Under the pieces are notes generated by a model. It made no database searches and was not told the DNA's origin. It was given only the letters and a program-made list of their open reading frames with translations. This document shows positions 18,965 to 30,498 of a stretch of DNA of 64,000 bases, piece after piece. How positions within the stretch are numbered: the first letter of the stretch is position 1; every line of letters starts with the position of its first letter. The position numbers and the translations under genes were made by a program. The DNA lies in NCBI RefSeq assembly GCF_009497775.1, contig NZ_CP031012.1:744001-808000 (forward strand), given 5' to 3'. Source of the stretch: Alcaligenes faecalis. Lineage in GTDB: Bacteria; Pseudomonadota; Gammaproteobacteria; Burkholderiales; Burkholderiaceae_B.

Positions 18965-19843
18965 ATGCAGGTGCCATTACTGAATGCCTTAAGAACCTTT
19001 ACGGTGTCGGCGCAAAGGTTGAACTTCACCAAGGCGGCAGAAGACCTGCTGGTCTCTCCCTCGGCAGTTAGCCACCAGATCAAGGTGCTGGAGGAGTATC
19101 TGGGCTGCAAGCTGTTTCTGCGTAAAAACCGTTCGCTGGAGCTGACGGATCAGGGCCAGTTTCTGTTTGACCGTTTGCAGCGGCCGTTTTACGAGATCAA
19201 TCAGGCCTTAAGTGAATTGCGCATGCCGCACGGCAAGAGCCGCATCAATCTGTCCTTGCGTCCTTTTGTGTCCAGCATGTGGTTTACCGGGCAGTTGGGA
19301 GATTTCTGGCTGAAGCATCCGGATATTGAAATCAACTTGCTGCACAGGTTGCAGGCACCGGATTTTTTCAGGGACAACATCAATTTTGCGATTGTCTGGG
19401 GCAAGCAGGGTGACTGGCCGCAGTTGCAGACCTTGCGCATCATCCCCGGCAATCTGACGCCTGTGTGTGCGCCGTCTTATTTGCAGGCGCATGGCCAGAT
19501 CACCTCCCCGGCGGATTTGAACCAGCATGTGCTGATTCACGAAGAAAATCAGCTGTGCTGGGAGCAGTGGTTGCGCAAGGCAGCGGGGCAGGCGCTGACG
19601 GCCAAGAAGAGCTTTCACATTGATGACACCAATGTGCGCATGAATGCCGTCTTGAACGGCCAAGGGGTCATGTTGGGCTGTCCGGCCTTGTTGCAGCCTT
19701 TGATCGACAAGAAGGAAATCGTCCAGCTATTCGATGTTTGCCTGGAAGAGTACGCGTATTTTCTGGCTTACCCCAAGGAGGCGAACCTTAGCCGACAGGA
19801 GCAGGAGTTTGTGGATTGGGTCGCGTCGATTGCAATTCGCTAG
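18965..19843 (+). CDS. LysR-family transcriptional regulator (GcvA-like)
   Basis: 292 aa. The N-terminal winged helix-turn-helix (LNFTKAAEDLLVSPSAVSHQIKVLEEYLG) is followed by a substrate-binding domain. It reads toward the Rieske oxygenase operon but is separated from it by a strong terminator and about 560 bp, so it is its own unit. Regulation of that operon is possible but not shown. AGGAG about 12 bp upstream supports the start. Confidence 0.9.
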   Translation: MQVPLLNALRTFTVSAQRLNFTKAAEDLLVSPSAVSHQIKVLEEYLGCKLFLRKNRSLELTDQGQFLFDRLQRPFYEINQALSELRMPHGKSRINLSLRPFVSSMWFTGQLGDFWLKHPDIEINLLHRLQAPDFFRDNINFAIVWGKQGDWPQLQTLRIIPGNLTPVCAPSYLQAHGQITSPADLNQHVLIHEENQLCWEQWLRKAAGQALTAKKSFHIDDTNVRMNAVLNGQGVMLGCPALLQPLIDKKEIVQLFDVCLEEYAYFLAYPKEANLSRQEQEFVDWVASIAIR

Positions 19844-19933: not shown

Positions 19934-19965
19934 AAAAAAACCTGCATATTTGCAGGTTTTTTTTT
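19934..19965. terminator. Strong intrinsic terminator after the LysR gene
   Basis: 13-bp perfect stem (A-tract plus CCTGCA) with a 4-nt loop and nine T. The A-tract on the other side makes it bidirectional in form. Confidence 0.92.
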
Positions 19966-19995: not shown

Positions 19996-20058
19996 GCACA
20001 TCGCACATCGCACATCGCACATCGCACATCGCACATCGCACATCGCATATCGCTCGTC
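19996..20058. repeat. Heptanucleotide tandem repeat (GCACATC)n
   Basis: Seven perfect copies of GCACATC (19996-20044), one copy with a single change (20045-20051) and a more diverged ninth. A second 7-bp periodicity (CTCATTT) follows at about 20074-20090. The gap 19844-20406 otherwise holds only the terminator above and the promoter region of the next operon; two short minus-strand frames here are not convincing. Confidence 0.9.
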
Positions 20059-20406
20059 GTACAGTGTTCATTGCTCATTTCTCATTTCTCATCGATTAGG
20101 GTGTGGAGCCCCGATCTGACGCGCCTGACCTGAAGCTTGATCAAGCTCCGCATAGTTCTCACACCGCTCATAACTGATTCCCAAATACCTGCACGCAGCC
20201 CTGAATCGGGTTTCACGTCGCCGTGAATTCCCACACTTTGCAGCGATTTCGACGCACCGCTTCCCCTTCACCCAGATTCAACAACAAAAAAAACTCATCG
20301 TTCCGTCAAATTTGCTCAATTTTCAAGCGTCGCTCCCTGTCGCATGATTGGCCTGACCTAATAAAAGCCATTCATGGTGCTCATGCAAACCAGAGGAGAT
20401 ATCGAG

Positions 20407-21630
20407 ATGAATACCGCTCTACGCTCGCCCATTGCGATTGAAGAATTTGACCGTAGCTACTTTCAGCAGGAAACCGACGAGGTTTTCGCCTTGCCCCCCG
20501 AGTGCTTTACCTCGGAAGAGTTTTTTCAATTTGAACTGAATGCCGTCTGGAAAAAGCAGTGGTTCTGTGTGGGCCGTGCAACCGACATCCCCAATGCCGG
20601 TGACTTCTTCACTTTCGACGTAGGCAATGATGCCTTGTTCGCCATTCGCACCCGCGAAGGCGGCATCAATGTGCTGTCCAACGTCTGTCGTCACCGCAAT
20701 ATGTTGTTGCTGGAAGGTGCAGGCAATGTGCGCCGCATTAGTTGCCCCTTGCACGCCTGGGTCTACAACATGGAGGGCGAGCTGGTTTCCGCCCCTGGGC
20801 TGACCGATACCGGCGCCAGCTTTGATCCCAAGAGCGTTTGTCTGCCCAAGATCCGCGCCGAGGTTTGGGAGGGCTTCATCTTCATCAACTACGACGCCAT
20901 GGCGCCTGCCTTGCACACCCGCCTGGGCAATCTGGGCAAGCAGTTGGCGAACTACCGCATGTCCGAGTTGAAGTCCTCCGAGCCTCTGAAGATGGAAGGT
21001 TTCGACTGGAACTGGAAGATCTTTAATGACGAGTGCTATCACTGCAGCTTCCTGCACGCTTCGTCCTGGGGCGGCATGTACGAGACCAATCCGGATCGTG
21101 TCGATGAAACCGCTGTCTTCAATGACGTGGCCAACGGCATTGTGTCCTACAACCTGCTCTCCACCCACAGGGACGCCGCGCCTACGCATACCGGCTCCAT
21201 CTTGCAGCCGCCCATGGATGGTCTGACCGACCAGGAGCGGACCCAGCTTTCTTACGTAACAGTGGCCCCTAACCTCTTGCTGGTCGCCATGCCCGACAAG
21301 GTGAAGTACTTCATGTGGCTGCCCAAAAGCGCCAAACAATCCACCTACGGCGTGTCCTGGATGTACCCGCAAGAAACGCTGGAGCGCGAGGATCACAAAG
21401 AGAAGTTCGATCAGGAACACGATGATCTGTATCCCGTGATGATCGAGGACCTGTTTGCCTGGCGTCGTTCGCATCAGGGCATGCAGTCCAACTTTGCCTC
21501 CCGTGGCCGTTTGACCAATGAAGAGCTGGTTATCAAGCGTTTGCAAAACTGGCTGATTGATCTGTACCGCGCCGAAGAGCGCCGTGTGGACGAGCAAAGC
21601 CGGGTATTGCCGATCCGAGCGATTGCTTAA
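20407..21630 (+). CDS. Rieske non-heme iron oxygenase, alpha subunit (CntA/GbcA-like)
   Basis: 407 aa from the ATG at 20407, chosen for AGAGGAG 9 bp upstream. The Rieske 2Fe-2S ligands are C94, H96, C113 and H116. The mononuclear iron site has H212 and H217, and the residue that bridges electron flow between subunits is Glu (E209, ECYHC) rather than the Asp of ring-hydroxylating dioxygenases. Glu here is known from carnitine monooxygenase and related quaternary-amine oxygenases. No beta subunit follows; the next gene is the matching reductase. I infer oxidative N-dealkylation or hydroxylation of a small nitrogenous compound; the substrate is unknown. Confidence 0.9.
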   Translation: MNTALRSPIAIEEFDRSYFQQETDEVFALPPECFTSEEFFQFELNAVWKKQWFCVGRATDIPNAGDFFTFDVGNDALFAIRTREGGINVLSNVCRHRNMLLLEGAGNVRRISCPLHAWVYNMEGELVSAPGLTDTGASFDPKSVCLPKIRAEVWEGFIFINYDAMAPALHTRLGNLGKQLANYRMSELKSSEPLKMEGFDWNWKIFNDECYHCSFLHASSWGGMYETNPDRVDETAVFNDVANGIVSYNLLSTHRDAAPTHTGSILQPPMDGLTDQERTQLSYVTVAPNLLLVAMPDKVKYFMWLPKSAKQSTYGVSWMYPQETLEREDHKEKFDQEHDDLYPVMIEDLFAWRRSHQGMQSNFASRGRLTNEELVIKRLQNWLIDLYRAEERRVDEQSRVLPIRAIA

Positions 21631-21648
21631 GGGAGCAGGAGCAGCATC

Positions 21649-22614
21649 ATGCAGCAAACTTTGCAAACACGCGTGCTGAAGAAAACCAGGCTGTCAGAGC
21701 GAGTGGTGGGCCTGACTCTGGGTTTGCAAAACGGGGACGAGTTCCCCGTCTGGGAGCCGGGGGCGCATATTGAACTGGAGCTGGCGGTGTCGCAGACCGA
21801 GCCGCTTTACCGTCAGTATTCGCTGTGTGGCCAACAGGCCAATACCCGCGAATGGCAAATTGCTGTTCTGAAAGAGGAAGCCGGGCGGGGAGGCTCTGCC
21901 TATATCCATGAGGTGTTGCAGGAAGGTGATGCGCTGGCTGTCAGCATTCCAAAAAATCACTTTCCCTTTGCTGCAAACAAGAAGTGCTTCTTTATTGCCG
22001 GGGGGATAGGCATCACGCCTATCGTGCCCATGGTCCAGGCCGCGGCGGCTGCGGGTCTGGACTGGCACTTGCTGTATCTGGCAAGAAACGCAGCGGATTT
22101 TATTTTTCTGCAAGAGCTGCAAGAAGTGGATGCTGCGCGCATCACCACGCATGCCTCCAATCAGGATGGGCTGTTTGATCTTCAAGGCGTATTGCACGCG
22201 CTGGATGCGCAAACCGTCGTCTATTCCTGCGGTCCGCAGCCTTTGCTGACCGCCTTGGAAAACTATCAACAGGAACAGGCCGATATTGGCTGGCAACTGG
22301 TGCTGGAGCGTTTTTCGGTAGAGACCGACCCGGCCATGCTGCAAGGCAAGGGCTTTACCGTGACCTTGCAGAAGTCGGGAAAAAGCATCGCGGTAGCGGG
22401 GGATGAAACGATTCTGGCCGCCTTGAAACGGGAAGGCATACGGGTCAAGTGCTCATGCCAGAACGGCACCTGCGGTACCTGCGAGACCGTAGTGATTTCC
22501 GGCCTGCCGGAGCATCGGGATTTTGTGCTGTCGTCAGAAGAGCGGCAGCTGAATGAAACCATGATGATCTGCGTCTCGCGCGCCTTGTCGGCCGAACTGG
22601 TTTTGGATCTATAA
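21649..22614 (+). CDS. Flavin/2Fe-2S oxygenase reductase (phthalate dioxygenase reductase type)
   Basis: 321 aa, passing electrons from NAD(P)H to the Rieske oxygenase encoded 18 bp upstream. RQYS at 55-58 binds flavin, GGIGITP at 118-124 the nucleotide, and a C-terminal plant-type ferredoxin domain has C270, C275, C278 and C308. The order flavin-nucleotide-ferredoxin is that of VanB/CntB/PDR reductases. RBS: GGGAGCAGGAG upstream. Confidence 0.93.
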   Translation: MQQTLQTRVLKKTRLSERVVGLTLGLQNGDEFPVWEPGAHIELELAVSQTEPLYRQYSLCGQQANTREWQIAVLKEEAGRGGSAYIHEVLQEGDALAVSIPKNHFPFAANKKCFFIAGGIGITPIVPMVQAAAAAGLDWHLLYLARNAADFIFLQELQEVDAARITTHASNQDGLFDLQGVLHALDAQTVVYSCGPQPLLTALENYQQEQADIGWQLVLERFSVETDPAMLQGKGFTVTLQKSGKSIAVAGDETILAALKREGIRVKCSCQNGTCGTCETVVISGLPEHRDFVLSSEERQLNETMMICVSRALSAELVLDL

Positions 22615-22634
22615 CAATAAACAGGAGAAACACC

Positions 22635-23507
22635 ATGAAGAAAGTGGTGGTTACAGGCGGCTCGGGCCGTGTGGGCTCGTACGTCGTACAGCAATTGATG
22701 CAGACCATGGATGTGGTCGTGGCGGATCTGAAACCCAGCCAGCATCAGGTTTCCTTTATTCAAACGGATGTGATGGATCTGGGGGCCGTGCGTGCGGCCA
22801 CCAAAGATGCCGATGCCGTAATTCACCTGGCGGCGATTGATTTCGACTGGAAGGCCGCCGAGGAGCAGTACATCAACGTCAATGTGCGCGGCACCTGGCA
22901 TGTACTGCAAGCCTGTCGTGAAAATGGCGTCAAGAAAGTGGTGCTGTGCTCCAGCATTTCAGCCTGCGGTCTGTCGGAGATGCGCGCCGATTGGAAACCC
23001 CAGTATCTGCCTGTGGACGAGGCCCATGAAAACAAGCCTTATCAGGCCTACAGCGTCAGCAAGATTGTCATGGAGCAGATGGCAAAAAGCTTTAGCGATG
23101 CCAGCGATATGGAAGTGATCTGCCTGCGTCCGCTGGCCGTGGTGCTTCCCGAAACCATTGCCGAGTACATCCAGTTTGTCGATAGCCCGCAGCGTAACTG
23201 GCTGTTCTATTACATCTGGGCTGCGGATCTGGCGCGTGCCTTTGAGGCCGCCGTGAATCTGCAAGGTCTGCGCTACGGCGTGTTCTTCATCAGTGCAGAC
23301 GATAGCTCCCACCCTCTGGCAACCACAGACTGGTATCAGCAGATTATTGGCCCTGTGCCTGAAATCAAGAACCCGCGCTGGTATCAGAACAATCCCCGTG
23401 CCTCCATTTTCAGCAGCCATGCAGCCAAGGAAATTCTGGGCTGGCAGCCAAGCACGGACTTTCAGCAACTGCGCCAGGAATACGCAGTGGAAAAAGACCT
23501 GGCGTGA
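22635..23507 (+). CDS. NAD-dependent epimerase/dehydratase family (extended SDR)
   Basis: 290 aa. Rossmann motif VVVTGGSGRVGSYV at the N-terminus; the YxxxK pair is in the segment YQAYSVSKIVME. It lies 20 bp after the reductase with its own AGGAGA and probably acts on the product of the oxygenase. Uronate dehydrogenase-like SDRs look similar, so a sugar-type or hydroxy-acid substrate cannot be excluded. The frame continues 4 bp past the next possible ATG. Confidence 0.85.
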   Translation: MKKVVVTGGSGRVGSYVVQQLMQTMDVVVADLKPSQHQVSFIQTDVMDLGAVRAATKDADAVIHLAAIDFDWKAAEEQYINVNVRGTWHVLQACRENGVKKVVLCSSISACGLSEMRADWKPQYLPVDEAHENKPYQAYSVSKIVMEQMAKSFSDASDMEVICLRPLAVVLPETIAEYIQFVDSPQRNWLFYYIWAADLARAFEAAVNLQGLRYGVFFISADDSSHPLATTDWYQQIIGPVPEIKNPRWYQNNPRASIFSSHAAKEILGWQPSTDFQQLRQEYAVEKDLA

Positions 23508-23554
23508 AACGCCCAGGTACCCATGACGAATACATTGAATACGGAGACTTGAGC

Positions 23555-24169
23555 ATGATGGGAATTAAAACCGGCACCTTGGATTGGACAGGCGACAACC
23601 CTTTTATTTACTTGAAGACTGACCCGGAGCAGGATTGGTCCTCCTTGTCCCTGTACTTTCGCATTGCCAGCTCGGCGTATGGCAGCGGTCAGGCCATCCT
23701 GGTTCTGGACAAGCCCTACGAGGACGGGCAGGACAGTGATGCGCGTTTGCTGATCACGGACAACAAGCCCTTGGCCGAGTATCTGGTGCAGGATTTCGTG
23801 CGCCACTTCGGTCTGTTTCGCAAGGCGGTGGCGCTGGATAAGTTGCAGGTCTTGGATGACGGTGTTTTCCAGACCGTAAACCGTTTCCCTGAACTGGTCA
23901 GCGAGTCTGTTACCTCCGCCAGTGCAGGTCTGACGGTGGAACTGCAATGGCATCACATGACGCAGCCAGCGATTTGTGTGGACCTGCCACAAAGCCAGAC
24001 CCAAACCCAGAAACACGAAATGATGTGTGTGTTCCACCCGGCGCAGCAAGCCAGGGTGCTGATCAATGGCACGGCCTTGCCGGGCAACACCATAGAGCGG
24101 GACTTTAACGGCTCGCGTGCGCAGTCCGCCAGCCTGGCGAACAGCGAAACCTGGGTGCGCGTGGCGTAA
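23555..24169 (+). CDS. Protein of unknown function in the Rieske operon
   Basis: 204 aa from the ATG at 23555 (GGAG 8 bp upstream); an upstream ATG at 23504 overlaps the SDR and is less likely. No signal peptide or membrane segment. The sequence alternates short beta-strands (TVELQWHHMTQPAICVDL) and looks like a single soluble alpha/beta domain; no catalytic motif is obvious. The position between the SDR and the DUF1116 gene, with short gaps, argues for a shared pathway. Confidence 0.75.
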   Translation: MMGIKTGTLDWTGDNPFIYLKTDPEQDWSSLSLYFRIASSAYGSGQAILVLDKPYEDGQDSDARLLITDNKPLAEYLVQDFVRHFGLFRKAVALDKLQVLDDGVFQTVNRFPELVSESVTSASAGLTVELQWHHMTQPAICVDLPQSQTQTQKHEMMCVFHPAQQARVLINGTALPGNTIERDFNGSRAQSASLANSETWVRVA

Positions 24170-24178
24170 GGAGACGAT

Positions 24179-25345
24179 ATGGCTCAGCATGTAGAGACGC
24201 AGGCCGTGATGCCCGCCTGGACAGGAGTCCGGTCCCTGCAATCCATTTTGCCCTCGCAAGGCCGCCTGGTCCTGCATGCCGGGCCGCCGTTTCGGAACGC
24301 GCAGGAGCTGCCTGCCGCAATACGAAACTCGGTTCTGATCGGCATTCTGTATGAGGGCTGGGCAGCCAGCAAACAAGAGGCGCAAGCCTTGCTGGATGCT
24401 GGGGGCGTGCAACTGGCTCCCGCGCAGGATTACGGCGTGGTGGTGCCATTGGCCGGAGTGGTGACGCCGTCCATGTATTTGATTGAGGTCAGCGACAGCA
24501 ATCGGCCCGACAACAAGAAATACTCGGTGCTGAATGAAGGCATGCAGTGGTGCACCCGGCTGGGTATTTTTGCCGACGAAATGGTGCCGCATCTGCGTTG
24601 GCTGCATCAGGATTTGGGGGCACGGCTGGCCGCACAGTTTCAGGGGCCGCTAGATCTGGCGCCCATCGTTCAGGCTTCCTTGCTCAATGGTGATGATGGT
24701 CATGCACGTACCATGCATGGCTCCGGGCAACTGGCTGACATTATTGTCTCCTGGGGCATTAATGACGAGGCCAGTCAGAGCTTTCTGTACGGCGCAATGG
24801 CCTGGGCCCTGAATTACTGGATGGCCGCCAGTGCCTTGATTCTGGCAAACCAGACGCCTGCTGATGGTGTGGATGCCATCGTCAAAGTGGGCGGCAATGG
24901 CTTGCGCTTTGGTTTGCAACTGGCCAGCTCCACAACCTGGCTGGTTACGGACGCCCCTGTCATTGCTGGCAATAAAGAACCCGGCAATGAACAGGTAAAT
25001 GCGCTGGGAGCCTTGGGTGATAGTGCGGTGGTGGATTTTGTAGGGCTGGGTGGCCAGTGTCTGGATCTGGCCGGGATTAGCGCCAGGAATCTGCAGGCCT
25101 TTCTGCCCTCGGACTACCTGACTCGTCAAAGCCAGTTCCTGAAAACCCGCTTGCCCTTTCTGGCCGGGCGCAATGGCATTAGCGATTTTGCGCAGGTGAT
25201 TGCCAGCAATACCGGGCCGTTGGTGCTGCTGGGCATGATTGATGGTGCTGGAGAACGTGGCCGTGTTGGTGGCGGGGTGGCGACGGTGGATGCCTCTTTA
25301 TTGCAAGCTCTCAAGGAGTGGCAGCATGAAACGACAGTGGTTTAA
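24179..25345 (+). CDS. DUF1116 (AllG/YlbE-like) protein
   Basis: 388 aa, soluble. It resembles the DUF1116 family, whose member AllG works with FdrA and AllH as oxamate carbamoyltransferase in allantoin breakdown. Motifs fitting the family include LHAGPPF near residue 32, HLRWLHQDLG, and the Gly-rich DAIVKVGGNGLRFG. No fdrA-like or allH-like gene is visible nearby, so the reaction here is unclear. It starts 9 bp after the previous gene with AAGGAG, and its last 20 bp overlap the amidase. Confidence 0.7.
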   Translation: MAQHVETQAVMPAWTGVRSLQSILPSQGRLVLHAGPPFRNAQELPAAIRNSVLIGILYEGWAASKQEAQALLDAGGVQLAPAQDYGVVVPLAGVVTPSMYLIEVSDSNRPDNKKYSVLNEGMQWCTRLGIFADEMVPHLRWLHQDLGARLAAQFQGPLDLAPIVQASLLNGDDGHARTMHGSGQLADIIVSWGINDEASQSFLYGAMAWALNYWMAASALILANQTPADGVDAIVKVGGNGLRFGLQLASSTTWLVTDAPVIAGNKEPGNEQVNALGALGDSAVVDFVGLGGQCLDLAGISARNLQAFLPSDYLTRQSQFLKTRLPFLAGRNGISDFAQVIASNTGPLVLLGMIDGAGERGRVGGGVATVDASLLQALKEWQHETTVV

Positions 25346-26636
25346 GCTGCCTTTGCATCAATTGCTGCACGCTCTGCATACGGGCGAAGCCAGTCTGCCG
25401 GAGATCGTGGCTTCCTTCTACGAGCGCATTGCCATACGCGATGACAAGATTGGTGCCTGGCAGTATCTGATTGATCAGGATGACTATCTGGCCGAGTACG
25501 AAAGCCGCAGCGATTTTTACAAGGCCTCGCCCTTGATGGGCCTGCCCTTTGCGGTCAAGGACGTGATTGATACGGCCGGTATTCCCACCACAATGGGTTC
25601 GGCCATTCACCAGGATCGGATCCCGGATATGGATGCTTCCTGCGTTACCGCGATGAAAGCGGCAGGCGGCATTTTGATGGGCAAGACGGTTACGACCGAG
25701 TTTGCTTACTTTCAGGCAGGCAAGACGAACAACCCGCATGATGCCGAGCGCACACCCGGTGGCTCGTCCAGCGGCTCTGCCGCTGCCGTGGCTGATTTCA
25801 TGGTGCCGGTAGCCTTCGGCACACAGACGGCGGCATCGGTCATACGGCCCGCATCCTACTGCGGCTGCATTGGCTATGTAGGCAGCAAGAACGAGTTCTC
25901 CTTGCGCAATATTCAGCCGCTGGCCCAGTCGCTGGATTCTCTGGGCATACTCAGCAACGATGTGCTCGACACGCTCTTGCTGCGCAATATCCTGCTGCAC
26001 AAACCCTTGAGTCTGAGCACGCCAGGGGCACAGGCGGCTTGTGTGTTCGGTGTTTTCTCCGGGCAGGCACTGGGTGAAGTTCAGGACAAGATGCTGGAGA
26101 CCTTGCAGGCCTGCCAGCAGGACTTGTCGGAGCAAGGGCATACGCTGGTGGATTTTCCCTTGCAGGACGCCGTTGTTGAGTTGACGGCTTTGCATGCCCA
26201 GATCATGGCTTATGAAGTGGCCCGGAATCTGGTGTACGAGCAACAGCAGCATGACACCTTGAGCGCTCATATGCAGTCTTTGATGAGCACGGGGCTGGCT
26301 TTCCCCTACAAGGAGTACATCGCTGCCTTGCAAAGAGCAGACACGCTCAAACAGATGCTGCTGCAATGGTTTGAGGATAGCGGGGCGGATTTCATTCTGG
26401 CACCTGCGGCTGCCGGTGTTGCGCCTTATAAAACCGAAGGAACGGGGGCGCCATTCATGAGTCGTGCCTGGCAGTTACTGGGCTTGCCCGTGGTGTCCTT
26501 GCCGTTGGGTTATTTCCAGAAACTGCCCATGGGTTTGCAGTTGATAGGCAAGCCGCATCAGGATGATGTTTTGCTTCTGCAAGCGCGTCAGTTGCAGCAG
26601 CGCTTTTTAAACAGCAGCTCAGTGTTAGCCGTGTAG
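25326..26636 (+). CDS. Amidase-signature-family hydrolase
   Basis: 436 aa from the ATG at 25326 (AAGGAG upstream, inside the end of the DUF1116 gene); a longer frame from 25239 has no RBS. The Ser-Ser-Lys machinery is present: catalytic Lys in FAVKDVIDTAG, the Gly/Ser-rich GGSSSGSAAAVADF, and the nucleophile Ser within GTQTAASVIRPASYCG. It resembles AtzF/glutamyl-tRNA amidotransferase-A-like amidases acting on small amides. It ends the operon just before a terminator. I infer it releases ammonia or a carboxylate late in the pathway. Confidence 0.88.
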   Translation: MKRQWFKLPLHQLLHALHTGEASLPEIVASFYERIAIRDDKIGAWQYLIDQDDYLAEYESRSDFYKASPLMGLPFAVKDVIDTAGIPTTMGSAIHQDRIPDMDASCVTAMKAAGGILMGKTVTTEFAYFQAGKTNNPHDAERTPGGSSSGSAAAVADFMVPVAFGTQTAASVIRPASYCGCIGYVGSKNEFSLRNIQPLAQSLDSLGILSNDVLDTLLLRNILLHKPLSLSTPGAQAACVFGVFSGQALGEVQDKMLETLQACQQDLSEQGHTLVDFPLQDAVVELTALHAQIMAYEVARNLVYEQQQHDTLSAHMQSLMSTGLAFPYKEYIAALQRADTLKQMLLQWFEDSGADFILAPAAAGVAPYKTEGTGAPFMSRAWQLLGLPVVSLPLGYFQKLPMGLQLIGKPHQDDVLLLQARQLQQRFLNSSSVLAV

Positions 26637-26655
26637 TTTTCTTTTTTTCTTTTAG

Positions 26656-26685
26656 GCGTCCTGTTTTTACAGGGCGCTTTTTTTT
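26656..26685 (+). terminator. Intrinsic terminator of the Rieske-amidase operon
   Basis: 9-bp stem with one G-T pair (26656-26664, 26669-26677) and eight T, 20 bp after the amidase stop. Confidence 0.88.
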
Positions 26686-26696
26686 GGGCTGTATTT

Positions 26697-27131
26697 TTAT
26701 AGTTTGGGCAGCAGATACTTTTCAAATAGCCATTTCAAACCATACAGCGCCCCGAAAATAATCGCGGCAATGGCCAGAAAATCTGCGCTGAAAACGCTTT
26801 GCTGTTTGTGGGACAGCTCCATATAGACGTGCTCGTCAGCGGGCCGGGCATAAGTCATGGGAACGGTAGCCTTGGGCAAAGTGGCCTGCAGGACGACATA
26901 GCTGCCATCTTCAGCCGCTTGCATCAGCAGCTCGTCCACCGGCGTGGGGGCCAGGCCGTCGTAATGCCCTGGCTTGCATAGTTGCCGGGCTCCTTGAGCC
27001 CAGTTGTCACTGCTTTCGGGGCAGTAAGCCTGGATGCTGTAGCCATTGCTGAACTGAACCGTCAGCCACCCTTGGGCATGCGAGTGGGCGTCGCTGCTTA
27101 CGGTTACGTTGGTGAGGCTGATGGTGGTCAT
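26697..27131 (-). CDS. Small C-terminally membrane-anchored protein, unknown function
   Basis: 144 aa. The soluble N-terminal domain has a conserved-looking beta-strand start (MTTISLTNVTVSSDAHS) and three Cys; a single membrane segment (FLAIAAIIFGALYGLKWLF) ends the protein. It reads convergently with the amidase operon. Not recognised. The plausible start and the membrane tail argue that it is real. Confidence 0.65.
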   Translation of the reverse strand: MTTISLTNVTVSSDAHSHAQGWLTVQFSNGYSIQAYCPESSDNWAQGARQLCKPGHYDGLAPTPVDELLMQAAEDGSYVVLQATLPKATVPMTYARPADEHVYMELSHKQQSVFSADFLAIAAIIFGALYGLKWLFEKYLLPKL

Positions 27132-27377: not shown

Positions 27378-28757
27378 TTAACTGGCGCGTGCCTTGCCCA
27401 TGCTGACTGCCGGTTTGGCATCGTGAGTCGGTTCGGTGTGATAGCGGCGTAAAGGCTTGTTGGCGGTTTCGGGCATCAGCACTGTCACCCAGAAAAAGCA
27501 CAGAACCGCGACCACCGTGACATAAAACGCCGGGGCCAGATAGCTGCCTGTCTGCGCCGTCAGCCAGATGGCCAGGTACGGTGCAGTACCACCAAAAATC
27601 GCGAAGGTGATGTTGTAGCACATGCTGGAAGCGGTATAGCGCATGTCGGTAGGGAACATCTCCGAGAGCAGAGTGACGGCCACCACACTGGCTGCCACCT
27701 GACCAATACCGATAATCAGCATGCCGAAAATGGCGGCCTCCAAAGAAGCTCCCTTGCTGACGATCATGTAGGCCGGAATGGTGAACAGCGCATGCCAGAC
27801 AGCGGCAAATTGCATCATGCGACGGCGGCCCACCCGGTCCGAGATCACACCGGCAAGCGGGGTCAGGGCAGTGACGAACAGCAGGGCAACCATGTTCGCG
27901 GTCAGGGACTGGACGGAGGACAAGCCAATGACCGTGCGCAGGAAAGTGTTCATGTAGGTGGAGAAAATGTAGAAGGACAGGGCGTACAGCACGATAAAGC
28001 CGCCCAGCTTCACAATATTGGAACCCTCTGCCTTGAACACTTGGGAAGCGCTGTAGCTGAGCTGCCCTTTTTTCTCTGCCCGCATCTGCTGGAACTCGGG
28101 CGATTCGGCCAGATGATCCCGAATGAAGAAGGCCACGATGCCCATGGGAACGGCCAGCAGGAAGATGGTGCGCCAGCCCCAATCGCCCATGGCCTCGGTA
28201 CCGACAATCGCGGCCAGACCGGCGCTGATTCCTGCTGCCAGTGCAAACGCAAAGTAGGTGGCACCGGACATGGCCCAGGCGTAGGAGTTGCGCTTGTTCA
28301 TGGGGCTGTGTTCAACGGTGTAGATGGTGGCGCCTGTATATTCGCCACCGGCCGACAGCCCCTGAATACAGCGGATGATGATCAGCAGAACCGGAGCCCA
28401 GATGCCAATGCTGTCATAGGTTGGAATCAGACCAATGGCCGCGGTCGAGCCGGACATCAGCAGGACGGTCAGGGCCAGAATCTTTTTGCGGCCAATGCGG
28501 TCGCCCAGTCGGCCAAAGTAGATCCCGCCCAGGGGGCGAACAATAAAGGACACCAGAAATACTGCAAAGGTGGCCAGCAAGCCCGCCATCTTGTCTTCCG
28601 TAGGGAAGAAGTTTTGTGCGATGTACACGGCCATATAGCCGAACAAGGCAAAGTCGAACCATTCAACGATCGTACCGGCCGCTGAACCCATCATTACTTT
28701 CTTGATGTGACCCGTATCGGTATGTTCCGATTCGGCCACGGTGCTTTCCCTTTGCAT
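27378..28757 (-). CDS. MHS-family major facilitator transporter
   Basis: 459 aa, twelve predicted membrane segments. MMGSAAGTIVEWFDFALFGY at the start and GRLGDRIGRKK in loop 2-3 mark the metabolite:H+ symporter group that includes ProP (betaine/proline), KgtP and ShiA. AGGAGA about 8 bp upstream of the ATG. It lies downstream of the Rieske operon on the other strand and faces away from a LysR gene. Import of the compound used by the operon is a reasonable inference. Confidence 0.92.
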   Translation of the reverse strand: MQRESTVAESEHTDTGHIKKVMMGSAAGTIVEWFDFALFGYMAVYIAQNFFPTEDKMAGLLATFAVFLVSFIVRPLGGIYFGRLGDRIGRKKILALTVLLMSGSTAAIGLIPTYDSIGIWAPVLLIIIRCIQGLSAGGEYTGATIYTVEHSPMNKRNSYAWAMSGATYFAFALAAGISAGLAAIVGTEAMGDWGWRTIFLLAVPMGIVAFFIRDHLAESPEFQQMRAEKKGQLSYSASQVFKAEGSNIVKLGGFIVLYALSFYIFSTYMNTFLRTVIGLSSVQSLTANMVALLFVTALTPLAGVISDRVGRRRMMQFAAVWHALFTIPAYMIVSKGASLEAAIFGMLIIGIGQVAASVVAVTLLSEMFPTDMRYTASSMCYNITFAIFGGTAPYLAIWLTAQTGSYLAPAFYVTVVAVLCFFWVTVLMPETANKPLRRYHTEPTHDAKPAVSMGKARAS

Positions 28758-29023
28758 ACTTATGTCTCCTCAAGTATTGGGACTATCTGTTTTTTGAAAT
28801 CAAACCCTGTGGGGGTAGCTGGTTTTTTTATTATTTATACGTGTCTGTCTTTTTTTGGTATTGGTTGGAAGCTCGGTTAGAGCATCGGCTGCAACAGGAT
28901 GAGTTCCTCCTTTCTGTGGGGCTGGGCATCCGGTCCTGACATGCTTGCAAAGCGCCATCCAGTGCGTGCTAGATAAGCTAATCCTCTGCAAATTGCTTGT
29001 CCATTCACTATTTGCGCACTATT

Positions 29024-29044
29024 ATTGATCGCGATGTTATCAAT
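29024..29044. promoter_or_regulatory. Putative LysR operator
   Basis: ATTGAT and ATCAAT form a perfect dyad separated by 9 bp, matching the T-N11-A LysR box. It lies in the 294-bp divergent space between the MHS transporter and the LysR gene, 7 bp from the LysR start, which suits autorepression with activation of the transporter. Confidence 0.5.
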
Positions 29045-29051
29045 CTAAAAA

Positions 29052-29987
29052 ATGAGCGAAACCATGATTCCCGCACGCCTGGATTTGCATCACCTGCGCG
29101 CCTTTAAAACGGTGGCCGAACAGTTGCATTTCAAGAAGGCGGCGGAGCTGCTGCACATCACGCAACCGGGGCTGACGCGCATCATCAAAAAGCTGGAAGA
29201 GGACTTGCAGGTGGATCTGTTTGAACGCAGCACCCGCCAGGTCAGGCTGACAGCGGCAGGCTTTTTGCTGCTGCAGGAAATCGAGCAGGTTTTTGTGCAT
29301 CTGGAGCGCGGTATCGAACTGGCCCAGAAAGCCAAGTTTGGCGATATCGGACACCTGATCATTGCCTATAACGACTACGCGGTGCAGGACGTGTTGCCCA
29401 GAACGTTGGAGCACTTCAAGCAGCAGTATTCGAACATCACAACCGATTTGTTATATATGCCCACGCAGCAGCAAATTCAGGGCTTGCAGCAGGGCAGCCT
29501 GGACCTGGGCTTTGGCTTTGCTTTCTCTGATGATCCCGAAGAGCTGGGCGTGCAGTGGAAGCCGGTCTGTCATGATGACCCTATCGTTCTTTTGCAGAGT
29601 GATCACCCTTTGGCAAAGGAAAAATCCATCCCCTTGGTGGAGCTGGCCAATGAGCGTTTTGTGGTGGGCAGCAAGACGCATTGGCAGGTCTGGCGGCGCT
29701 ATTTTTATTCACTGTGCCGACATGCCGGGTTTCATCCCAATTCCGTGCAGGAAGCCAGCACCATTACCGGCATCATGAGCATGGTGGCGGCCAATATCGG
29801 CATTGCCGTCTTGTCGCAGTCCTTGCGCAAGTATGTGCACCGTGATCTGGTGGCCATTGATCTGGACTTGTCGGGTCAGCATCCGCAGTCCTTCATCAAC
29901 ATCATGTGGCAGGAAAGCAATGCCAATCCCTGTGTGCCTTTATTCATCCAGACCATCTCGTCGGAGCTGATGGCGGCCAGTGTGTAA
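29052..29987 (+). CDS. LysR-family regulator divergent from the transporter
   Basis: 311 aa. DNA-binding domain LDLHHLRAFKTVAEQLHFKKAAELLHITQPGLTRIIKKLEEDL, of the CatR/BenM/CbbR-like type (LTRIIKKLE), then an effector domain. The ATG at 29052 has no clear Shine-Dalgarno; the ATG at 29064 is an alternative start. Its divergent layout makes it the best candidate to control the transporter and perhaps the operon. Confidence 0.9.
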   Translation: MSETMIPARLDLHHLRAFKTVAEQLHFKKAAELLHITQPGLTRIIKKLEEDLQVDLFERSTRQVRLTAAGFLLLQEIEQVFVHLERGIELAQKAKFGDIGHLIIAYNDYAVQDVLPRTLEHFKQQYSNITTDLLYMPTQQQIQGLQQGSLDLGFGFAFSDDPEELGVQWKPVCHDDPIVLLQSDHPLAKEKSIPLVELANERFVVGSKTHWQVWRRYFYSLCRHAGFHPNSVQEASTITGIMSMVAANIGIAVLSQSLRKYVHRDLVAIDLDLSGQHPQSFINIMWQESNANPCVPLFIQTISSELMAASV

Positions 29988-30081
29988 GGCTTGAGTATTT
30001 CTCATGGACCCTTGATGAGCGGTCATGATGCAAGAGGGGCGGTTTTGCTACATTGCAATTTTCAAACCTCCGCCCCTAGTT

Positions 30082-30498
30082 ATGAGCACTTCCGAAATAC
30101 AGTTTGGCCTTGATCATGTCATGTTGCGCGTCCTGGATCTGGAGCGATCCCTGGCGTTTTACCGCGATATTCTGGGCATGCATGTTGTGCGTCACACGGA
30201 CTATGAGTCCGGCCGCTTCACCAATGTGTTTCTCAGTTTTGATCAGGGCACGCAGTCCAGTCTGGAGCTGACCTGGAACTGGGATCAAAAAGAGCCGTAT
30301 GAGAAGGGCGGGGCTTTTGGTCATCTGGCCTTGATGGTCCAGGACGTGCATCAGGCAGTGCGTTATCTGGAAGAGCAGGGCGTCAGGATCAAGACGCCTC
30401 CCAAGCAGATGAATCACGGCAAACGCACGATTGCCTTTGTGTTTGACCCGGATGAGTACCTGATTGAACTGGTGGAGCCGCTGGCCTTGCCGTCCTGA
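30082..30498 (+). CDS. gloA: Lactoylglutathione lyase (glyoxalase I)
   Basis: Detoxifies methylglyoxal with glutathione. 138 aa from the ATG at 30082. Four metal ligands are visible: His in LDHVMLRV, Glu in SLELTWN, His in GHLALMV and Glu in LIELVEP. The longer frame from 30025 adds a non-conserved leader and is rejected. It is convergent with ubiD across a shared terminator. Confidence 0.95.
   Translation: MSTSEIQFGLDHVMLRVLDLERSLAFYRDILGMHVVRHTDYESGRFTNVFLSFDQGTQSSLELTWNWDQKEPYEKGGAFGHLALMVQDVHQAVRYLEEQGVRIKTPPKQMNHGKRTIAFVFDPDEYLIELVEPLALPS

Follow-up and report, generated by a model that had tools for sequence, protein, structure and literature searches.

Among the closest described systems to the operon reported here is oxamic transcarbamylase (OXTCase), the AllFGH complex that functions with the carbamate kinase AllK in the allantoin pathway of Escherichia coli, as described in PMC11326118. 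A homologue of AllG with the full fold is encoded by the fifth gene (ORF5) of a six-gene operon in Alcaligenes faecalis, which we analyzed within a 64,000-nucleotide stretch of contig NZ_CP031012.1 (positions 744,001 to 808,000; hereafter, the window). Unlike OXTCase, the operon loci are without AllF or AllK, and ORF5, which belongs to the other group of the AllG tree, is accompanied by an oxygenase and an amidase. The iad auxin degradation operon of Variovorax resembles the present operon in combining a Rieske oxygenase and its reductase with a dehydrogenase and in the amidase step that has been proposed, and by analogy it is a precedent for the action of a Rieske oxygenase and a dehydrogenase on a heteroaryl acetic acid; it differs in its further enzymes and in the presence of a separate small subunit of the oxygenase, the likeness being one of description only, and the term "DUF" is absent from its main text (PMC12633357). 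The hin histamine/imidazole-4-acetate pathway of Pseudomonas, likewise compared by description only, would have its substrate in common with the operon only if our leading guess is right, and it ends in aspartate rather than in the oxaloacetate proposed below (PMC8231116). In that source, the hinF, hinL, and hinH products of P. aeruginosa are termed (conserved) hypothetical proteins and the hinG product a probable peptidic bond hydrolase. Finally, the carnitine (CntA/YeaW) and glycine betaine (GbcA) monooxygenases have in common with the oxygenase of the operon (ORF1) a Glu bridge, as seen for YeaW, and a two-component Rieske system.

The six genes lie on the plus strand at positions 20407 to 26636, where open frames, order, and strand were checked. 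ORF1 (20407 to 21630, 407 residues) is a Rieske oxygenase alpha subunit with Glu209 as its bridging residue, assigned from motifs and from Pfam (Ring_hydroxyl_A and Rieske); ORF2 (21649 to 22614, 321 residues) is an NAD/FAD/2Fe-2S reductase with FAD, NAD, and Fer2 matches and is conserved beside ORF1; and ORF3 (22635 to 23507, 290 residues) is an Epimerase-type short-chain dehydrogenase/reductase with uronate dehydrogenases among its nearest solved relatives. ORF4 (23555 to 24169, 204 residues) has no Pfam or NCBIfam match, ORF5 (24179 to 25345, 388 residues) is a short AllG (PF06545, formerly DUF1116) assigned from Pfam, fold, and gene context, and ORF6 (25326 to 26636, 436 residues) is an amidase-signature hydrolase by Pfam and motifs, with malonamidase E2 as the nearest solved protein. 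The successive spacings are 18, 20, 47, 9, and −20 nucleotides if ORF4 begins at 23555, the likely start according to the alignment of its relatives, which lies 3′ of an overlapping GTG (23504) that would yield a protein of 221 residues. An intrinsic terminator-like site with an 11-pair stem and a T run follows at 26654 to 26679 on the plus strand; the region contains 23 such sites on both strands, compared with a mean of 11.1 in shuffled sequence. The gene set, tight spacing or overlap, and terminator described in an earlier note made from the letters of the window (the original prediction) were thus all seen.

When the oxygenase was used as the query across 84,980 species genomes, 28 loci were found, of which 26 encode a protein 56 to 99% identical to ORF1; in the two distant loci (L117 and L118, 27 to 28% identity) the six-gene set was not seen. 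The operon is fully covered by the contig at 21 of the 26 loci, and all 21 possess the six genes in one order and strand, whereas the five loci at contig edges (L095, L097, L100, L101, and L108) agree as far as the edge. Because every sufficiently long locus holds the six genes in order, the conserved gene set is not due to chance, and the conserved co-occurrence on which the original prediction had staked its case is borne out. The oxygenase is 99% identical to that of A. faecalis AU14, and 7 of 10 genomes of the genus, including that of the window, encode the protein at 94 to 100% identity. The operon extends over the beta-, gamma-, and alphaproteobacteria, with carriers in Alcaligenes, Paenalcaligenes, Advenella, Amphritea, Pontibacterium, Marinobacter, Oceanimonas, Denitrificimonas, Paracoccus, Pseudogemmobacter, and Gemmobacter as well as further Alcaligenaceae and Rhodobacteraceae; on plasmid IV of Paracoccus aminovorans the order is kept and a VOC gene is inserted 5′ of the amidase gene. 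We found no published account of the operon in the open-licence literature, in keeping with the earlier note, to whose author no described pathway with this set was known, and we conclude that it is a well-conserved, apparently uncharacterised catabolic unit.

ORF5 scores above the PF06545 gathering cut-off, has the full AllG fold, and keeps the invariant residues of the family (e.g., D172, H175, N240, D281, and S282), which makes it an AllG protein. It is the one AllG in its genome (4.16 Mb, single contig), where AllF gave only a 30.6-bit partial match (25% identity over residues 119 to 290 of 555) far from the operon, and AllK gave no match in a single search made without a positive control. 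No match to AllF, carbamate kinase, sarcosine oxidase, or molybdenum hydroxylase was found at the 26 operon loci and one further locus (L032), nor to AllH, for which the negative is weak since that query also failed to detect AllH at 6 of 14 loci with AllF. We also searched 398 sampled genomes of the phylum with a profile of solo AllG and scored up to four candidates per genome, which makes the counts lower bounds; AllG occurs at 19 or more places in at least 15 of these genomes. Apart from the window, 18 places were compared, of which 14 have both AllF and carbamate kinase in the surrounding stretch and four have neither. Among nine AllG-related plasmid records, hand-picked and therefore non-random (three of four ORF4 matches and six of 184 AllG matches), eight are without AllF and carbamate kinase and one (L060) has both. 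A quick tree of 41 AllG sequences separates the solo and AllF-linked proteins by one change, the branch that excludes L156 having a support of only 87. AllG proteins thus form two groups, one linked to AllF and carbamate kinase and one solo, and ORF5 is of the solo kind. Classical OXTCase was rejected for the operon because AllF and carbamate kinase went unmatched in these searches. Since the whole fold and the invariant residues are kept, solo AllG likely performs, by analogy, the same kind of chemistry as AllG without the carbamoyl-phosphate partner. The operon provides a context for AllG outside the OXTCase complex, in which a protein described to date as one of three subunits would work alone.

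A Rieske oxygenase or molybdenum hydroxylase is encoded in the stretch around 11 of the 12 solo AllG loci (several kb off or at the far side at L140 and L157), and an amidase is encoded at eight; no amidase-family match was found at L055, L057, and L059, and neither hydroxylase nor amidase at L144. On a Rhodococcus ruber plasmid (L055, 7395 to 25047), two solo AllG genes occur with a Rieske system, an aldo/keto reductase, a formate dehydrogenase, and malate synthase G. At L156 (4466 to 18478), solo AllG is found with a Glu-bridged Rieske oxygenase, a pyridine nucleotide-disulfide reductase, an amidase, and a molybdenum hydroxylase.

The best overall explanation, to which we assign a probability of about 45%, is that the operon specifies an entire lower pathway for the breakdown of a small N-heterocyclic carboxylic acid; the mechanism for such an acid, considered by itself, has an even chance of being right. 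As the protein families suggest, ORF1 and ORF2 would oxygenate a pair of ring carbons and ORF3 would convert the alcohol so formed into a ring carbonyl by oxidation. Ring opening, spontaneous or by ORF4, would give an N-acyl-type amide, and solo AllG may then cleave the distal bond of the amide nitrogen without forming carbamoyl phosphate, an idea taken by analogy from the conversion of oxalurate to oxamate by OXTCase. The freed primary amide would be converted to acid and ammonia by the amidase, and, because the opening of a ring diol can give a 2-oxoaldehyde, the glyoxalase-like protein encoded nearby could handle any of that compound that leaks. Oxidation of an imidazole ring at C4–C5 would release C2 as formate and leave glyoxylate from imidazole or oxaloacetate from imidazole-4-acetate; the latter substrate would thus yield oxaloacetate (C4, C5, and the side chain), formate, and two ammonia. 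The gene 3′ of the amidase at L103 is nearest to the oxaloacetate decarboxylase PA4872, with relatives at the equivalent place in L104 and L107, and formate dehydrogenase genes are present in the stretch of L101, L102, L107, and L115; a gene for one subunit lies at the edge of L099, and formate dehydrogenase also accompanies the two solo AllG genes of the R. ruber plasmid. These neighbors, in a few loci, make imidazole-4-acetate itself the leading candidate, and a doubtful one. At a similar level of doubt, we suggest that solo AllG may be an independent enzyme with hydrolase or lyase activity toward N-formyl-, N-formimidoyl-, or N-carbamoyl-amides from oxidized imidazole-like rings, that AllG and amidase could form a module fed by Rieske or molybdenum hydroxylases, and that the operon would constitute a second, oxygenase-first imidazole-4-acetate route with ORF4 as a new enzyme family.

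Several observations weigh against an N-heterocyclic acid or against this particular one. Formate dehydrogenase occurs at 4 of the 26 loci and the oxaloacetate-decarboxylase-like gene at 3, in two lineages and one branch of the ORF1 tree. The ABC binding protein found at some loci best matches a spermidine/putrescine-binding protein (235 bits), which is no ring-acid binder, and chains of a γ-aminobutyric acid (GABA) sensor come next. Imidazole-4-acetate is a GABA analogue, and we regard this likeness as a weak clue to it. The upstream regulator LysR1 is GcvA-like, with the glycine cleavage activator as its nearest solved chain, and was set aside as uninformative about the substrate. In all 20 regions inspected within the same order, some of them truncated at contig ends, relatives of ORF4 are accompanied by neither AllG nor ORF1. 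In addition, a different route for imidazole-4-acetate is known, that of the hin genes (PMC8231116). Because some carriers are marine and a Ruegeria locus was among those examined, homarine was considered; no gene description was found in the open-licence literature, and it stays a lead only.

The properties of ORF1 bear on a reading in terms of quaternary amines. The protein has Rieske motifs (CRHRN from residue 94 and CPLHAW from residue 113) and, within ECYHCSFLH, the bridging acid E209 and the two iron-site histidines H212 and H217, and it is thus a Rieske non-heme iron oxygenase. Its nearest solved relatives are carnitine monooxygenase CntA (99.9 bits) and biphenyl dioxygenase (98.9 bits), virtually tied, and its best NCBIfam match, GbcA, reached 129.3 bits against an equivalog cut-off of 670. 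Thirteen ORF1 orthologues form a clade of their own (Shimodaira-Hasegawa-like approximate likelihood ratio test, 99), apart from YeaW, which was placed with other sequences (support 93). This tree, a quick one that like the AllG tree carries long-branch warnings, has just two named references, YeaW and HcaE, with GbcA missing because none exceeded the cut-off in 143 genomes, and leaves out five of 20 candidate Rieske loci (L160, L163, L165, L166, and L170) in which the motif filter found no frame. In all 13 aligned orthologues, the segment from the WK motif to the bridging Glu is also three residues shorter than in YeaW (ORF1 residues 203 to 209). The bridging residue is Asp in the Rieske enzymes of solo AllG loci from Variovorax, Ruegeria, and Rhodococcus, whereas it is Glu at L156 and in the present operon; since AllG-linked enzymes carry either residue, the Glu bridge is, as judged from sequence, a poor guide to the substrate. 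The E209 within ECYHC of the original prediction is present, and the connection to quaternary amines drawn from it is weak. The same genome has eight further Rieske-type matches to ORF1 and nine matches with the GbcA model.

A rival reading, in which a CntA/GbcA-like monooxygenase N-demethylates or hydroxylates a quaternary amine or betaine, formaldehyde passes to formate, and the later genes handle the side chain, would agree with the Glu bridge, the top NCBIfam (GbcA) and PDB (CntA) matches, the ProP-like MHS transporter, and a choline-dehydrogenase-like GMC enzyme with an aldehyde dehydrogenase at one locus (L105). We consider it unlikely in view of the low GbcA score, the tie of CntA with biphenyl dioxygenase, and the separation from YeaW; moreover, demethylation has no need of AllG and an amidase, AllG is elsewhere accompanied by Asp-bridged oxygenases, and sarcosine oxidase, which adjoins AllG in Ruegeria, gave no match at the 26 loci and L032.

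It seems quite unlikely that the substrate is of the ureide, hydantoin, or pyrimidine type, with an acylurea cleaved by AllG and carbamoyl transfer. AllG is a subunit of oxamic transcarbamylase (PMC11326118), and HpxZ and amidase genes occur in some solo AllG clusters with molybdenum hydroxylase, both of which favor such a substrate, but AllF and carbamate kinase gave no match at any of the 12 solo loci or the 26 close loci, and AllH also went unmatched in the weak test noted above. Plain hydrolytic release of carbamate is compatible with these data. The earlier proposal of oxidation of a nitrogen compound, dehydrogenation, and amide hydrolysis fits the protein families, whereas carbamoyl release by the known OXTCase is not supported.

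The TRAP binding proteins encoded at other loci have 2pfy, 6wgm, and 2pfz as their nearest solved relatives, and we take 2pfy and 2pfz to be two Bordetella DctP proteins with bound pyroglutamate. Two Bordetella DctP proteins were crystallized with pyroglutamate according to a review. Conversion of a pyrrole or pyrrolidone carboxylate to 2-oxoglutarate or glutamate, which would suit these pyroglutamate-type binding proteins and the 3-hydroxyproline dehydratases near the operon in L110, is very unlikely, as it leaves AllG, the oxaloacetate-decarboxylase-like gene, and formate dehydrogenase unexplained and the solved binding proteins are only distant (about 120 bits). Pyroglutamate itself would need no oxygenase and was rejected.

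For ORF4, a strand-rich fold with a weak resemblance to acetoacetate decarboxylase is predicted, and Foldseek returned no structural relatives at E < 0.001. The PDB sequence matches of an ORF4 profile were three RNA-binding chains (E of 0.07 to 0.15) and were taken as chance. The operon thus points to one unclassified protein family open to direct assay. In Ruegeria conchae (L034, 9974 to 11232), two different tandem ORF4 paralogues are located 5′ of AllG and amidase genes, adjoined by sarcosine oxidase and RidA genes. ORF6 has the Lys-Ser-Ser motifs of the amidase signature family (FAVKD at 75, GGSSSGS at 145, and TQTAASVIRPA at 166), scores 215.5 bits with PF01425, and belongs to that family; under strict patterns, 11 relatives showed GSSSGS in 11, VKD in eight, and the last motif in two.

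The conserved unit is larger than six genes and adds a glyoxalase-I-like gene, a GcvA-like LysR gene, and an exchangeable transporter; the two LysR genes of the window and the glyoxalase-like gene were not part of the original prediction, nor was the likely ORF4 start 3′ of the GTG. LysR1 (18965 to 19843, plus strand), assigned by family match, has a match at 24 of the 26 loci (weak at L108, 28% identical), and at the other two the contigs begin just 5′ of ORF1. The glyoxalase-I-like VOC protein (30025 to 30498, plus strand) also has relatives at 24 of the 26 loci and scores 121.4 bits with TIGR00068 (cut-off 120); of three other VOC proteins one was above this value (142.1) and two below (106.4 and 110.7). 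Transporters are of the TRAP type at 12 loci, MHS at seven, and ABC at three, and the remaining four comprise two cut by the contig (L095 and L111), one with an upstream MFS gene (L094), and L105 with an NCS1 permease besides the GMC alcohol dehydrogenase and aldehyde dehydrogenase. The MHS-family symporter of the window (27378 to 28757, minus strand), a probable uptake system in Alcaligenaceae, reached 361.5 bits with TIGR00883 (cut-off 443.45) and 320.9 with ProP (cut-off 544); the neighboring MHS transporter that had been noted earlier is present, as only one of at least three transport solutions. This variety opens a short way to the substrate, as ligand screens can be applied to the TRAP and ABC binding proteins. 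At L097 and L098 the gene order is MHS, LysR2, VOC, LysR1, ORF1, which ties the window genes from 27378 to 30498, including the second LysR-family regulator LysR2 (29052 to 29987, plus strand), to the operon.

A terminator-like hairpin of 13 pairs with a T run (19934 to 19963) is located 3′ of LysR1 and suggests that this gene is transcribed separately from the operon. Between LysR1 and ORF1 there is a tandem array of the 7-base unit GCACATC (19996 to 20053; 8.3 copies, 98% match), followed on its 3′ side by a second 7-base array (20068 to 20092). A 144-residue protein with a possible C-terminal membrane segment, recognized by eye, is encoded on the minus strand between the operon and the MHS gene (26697 to 27131), and frames of 164 to 199 residues, compared by position and unaligned, occupy the equivalent place in L091, L092, L093, L096, and L113.

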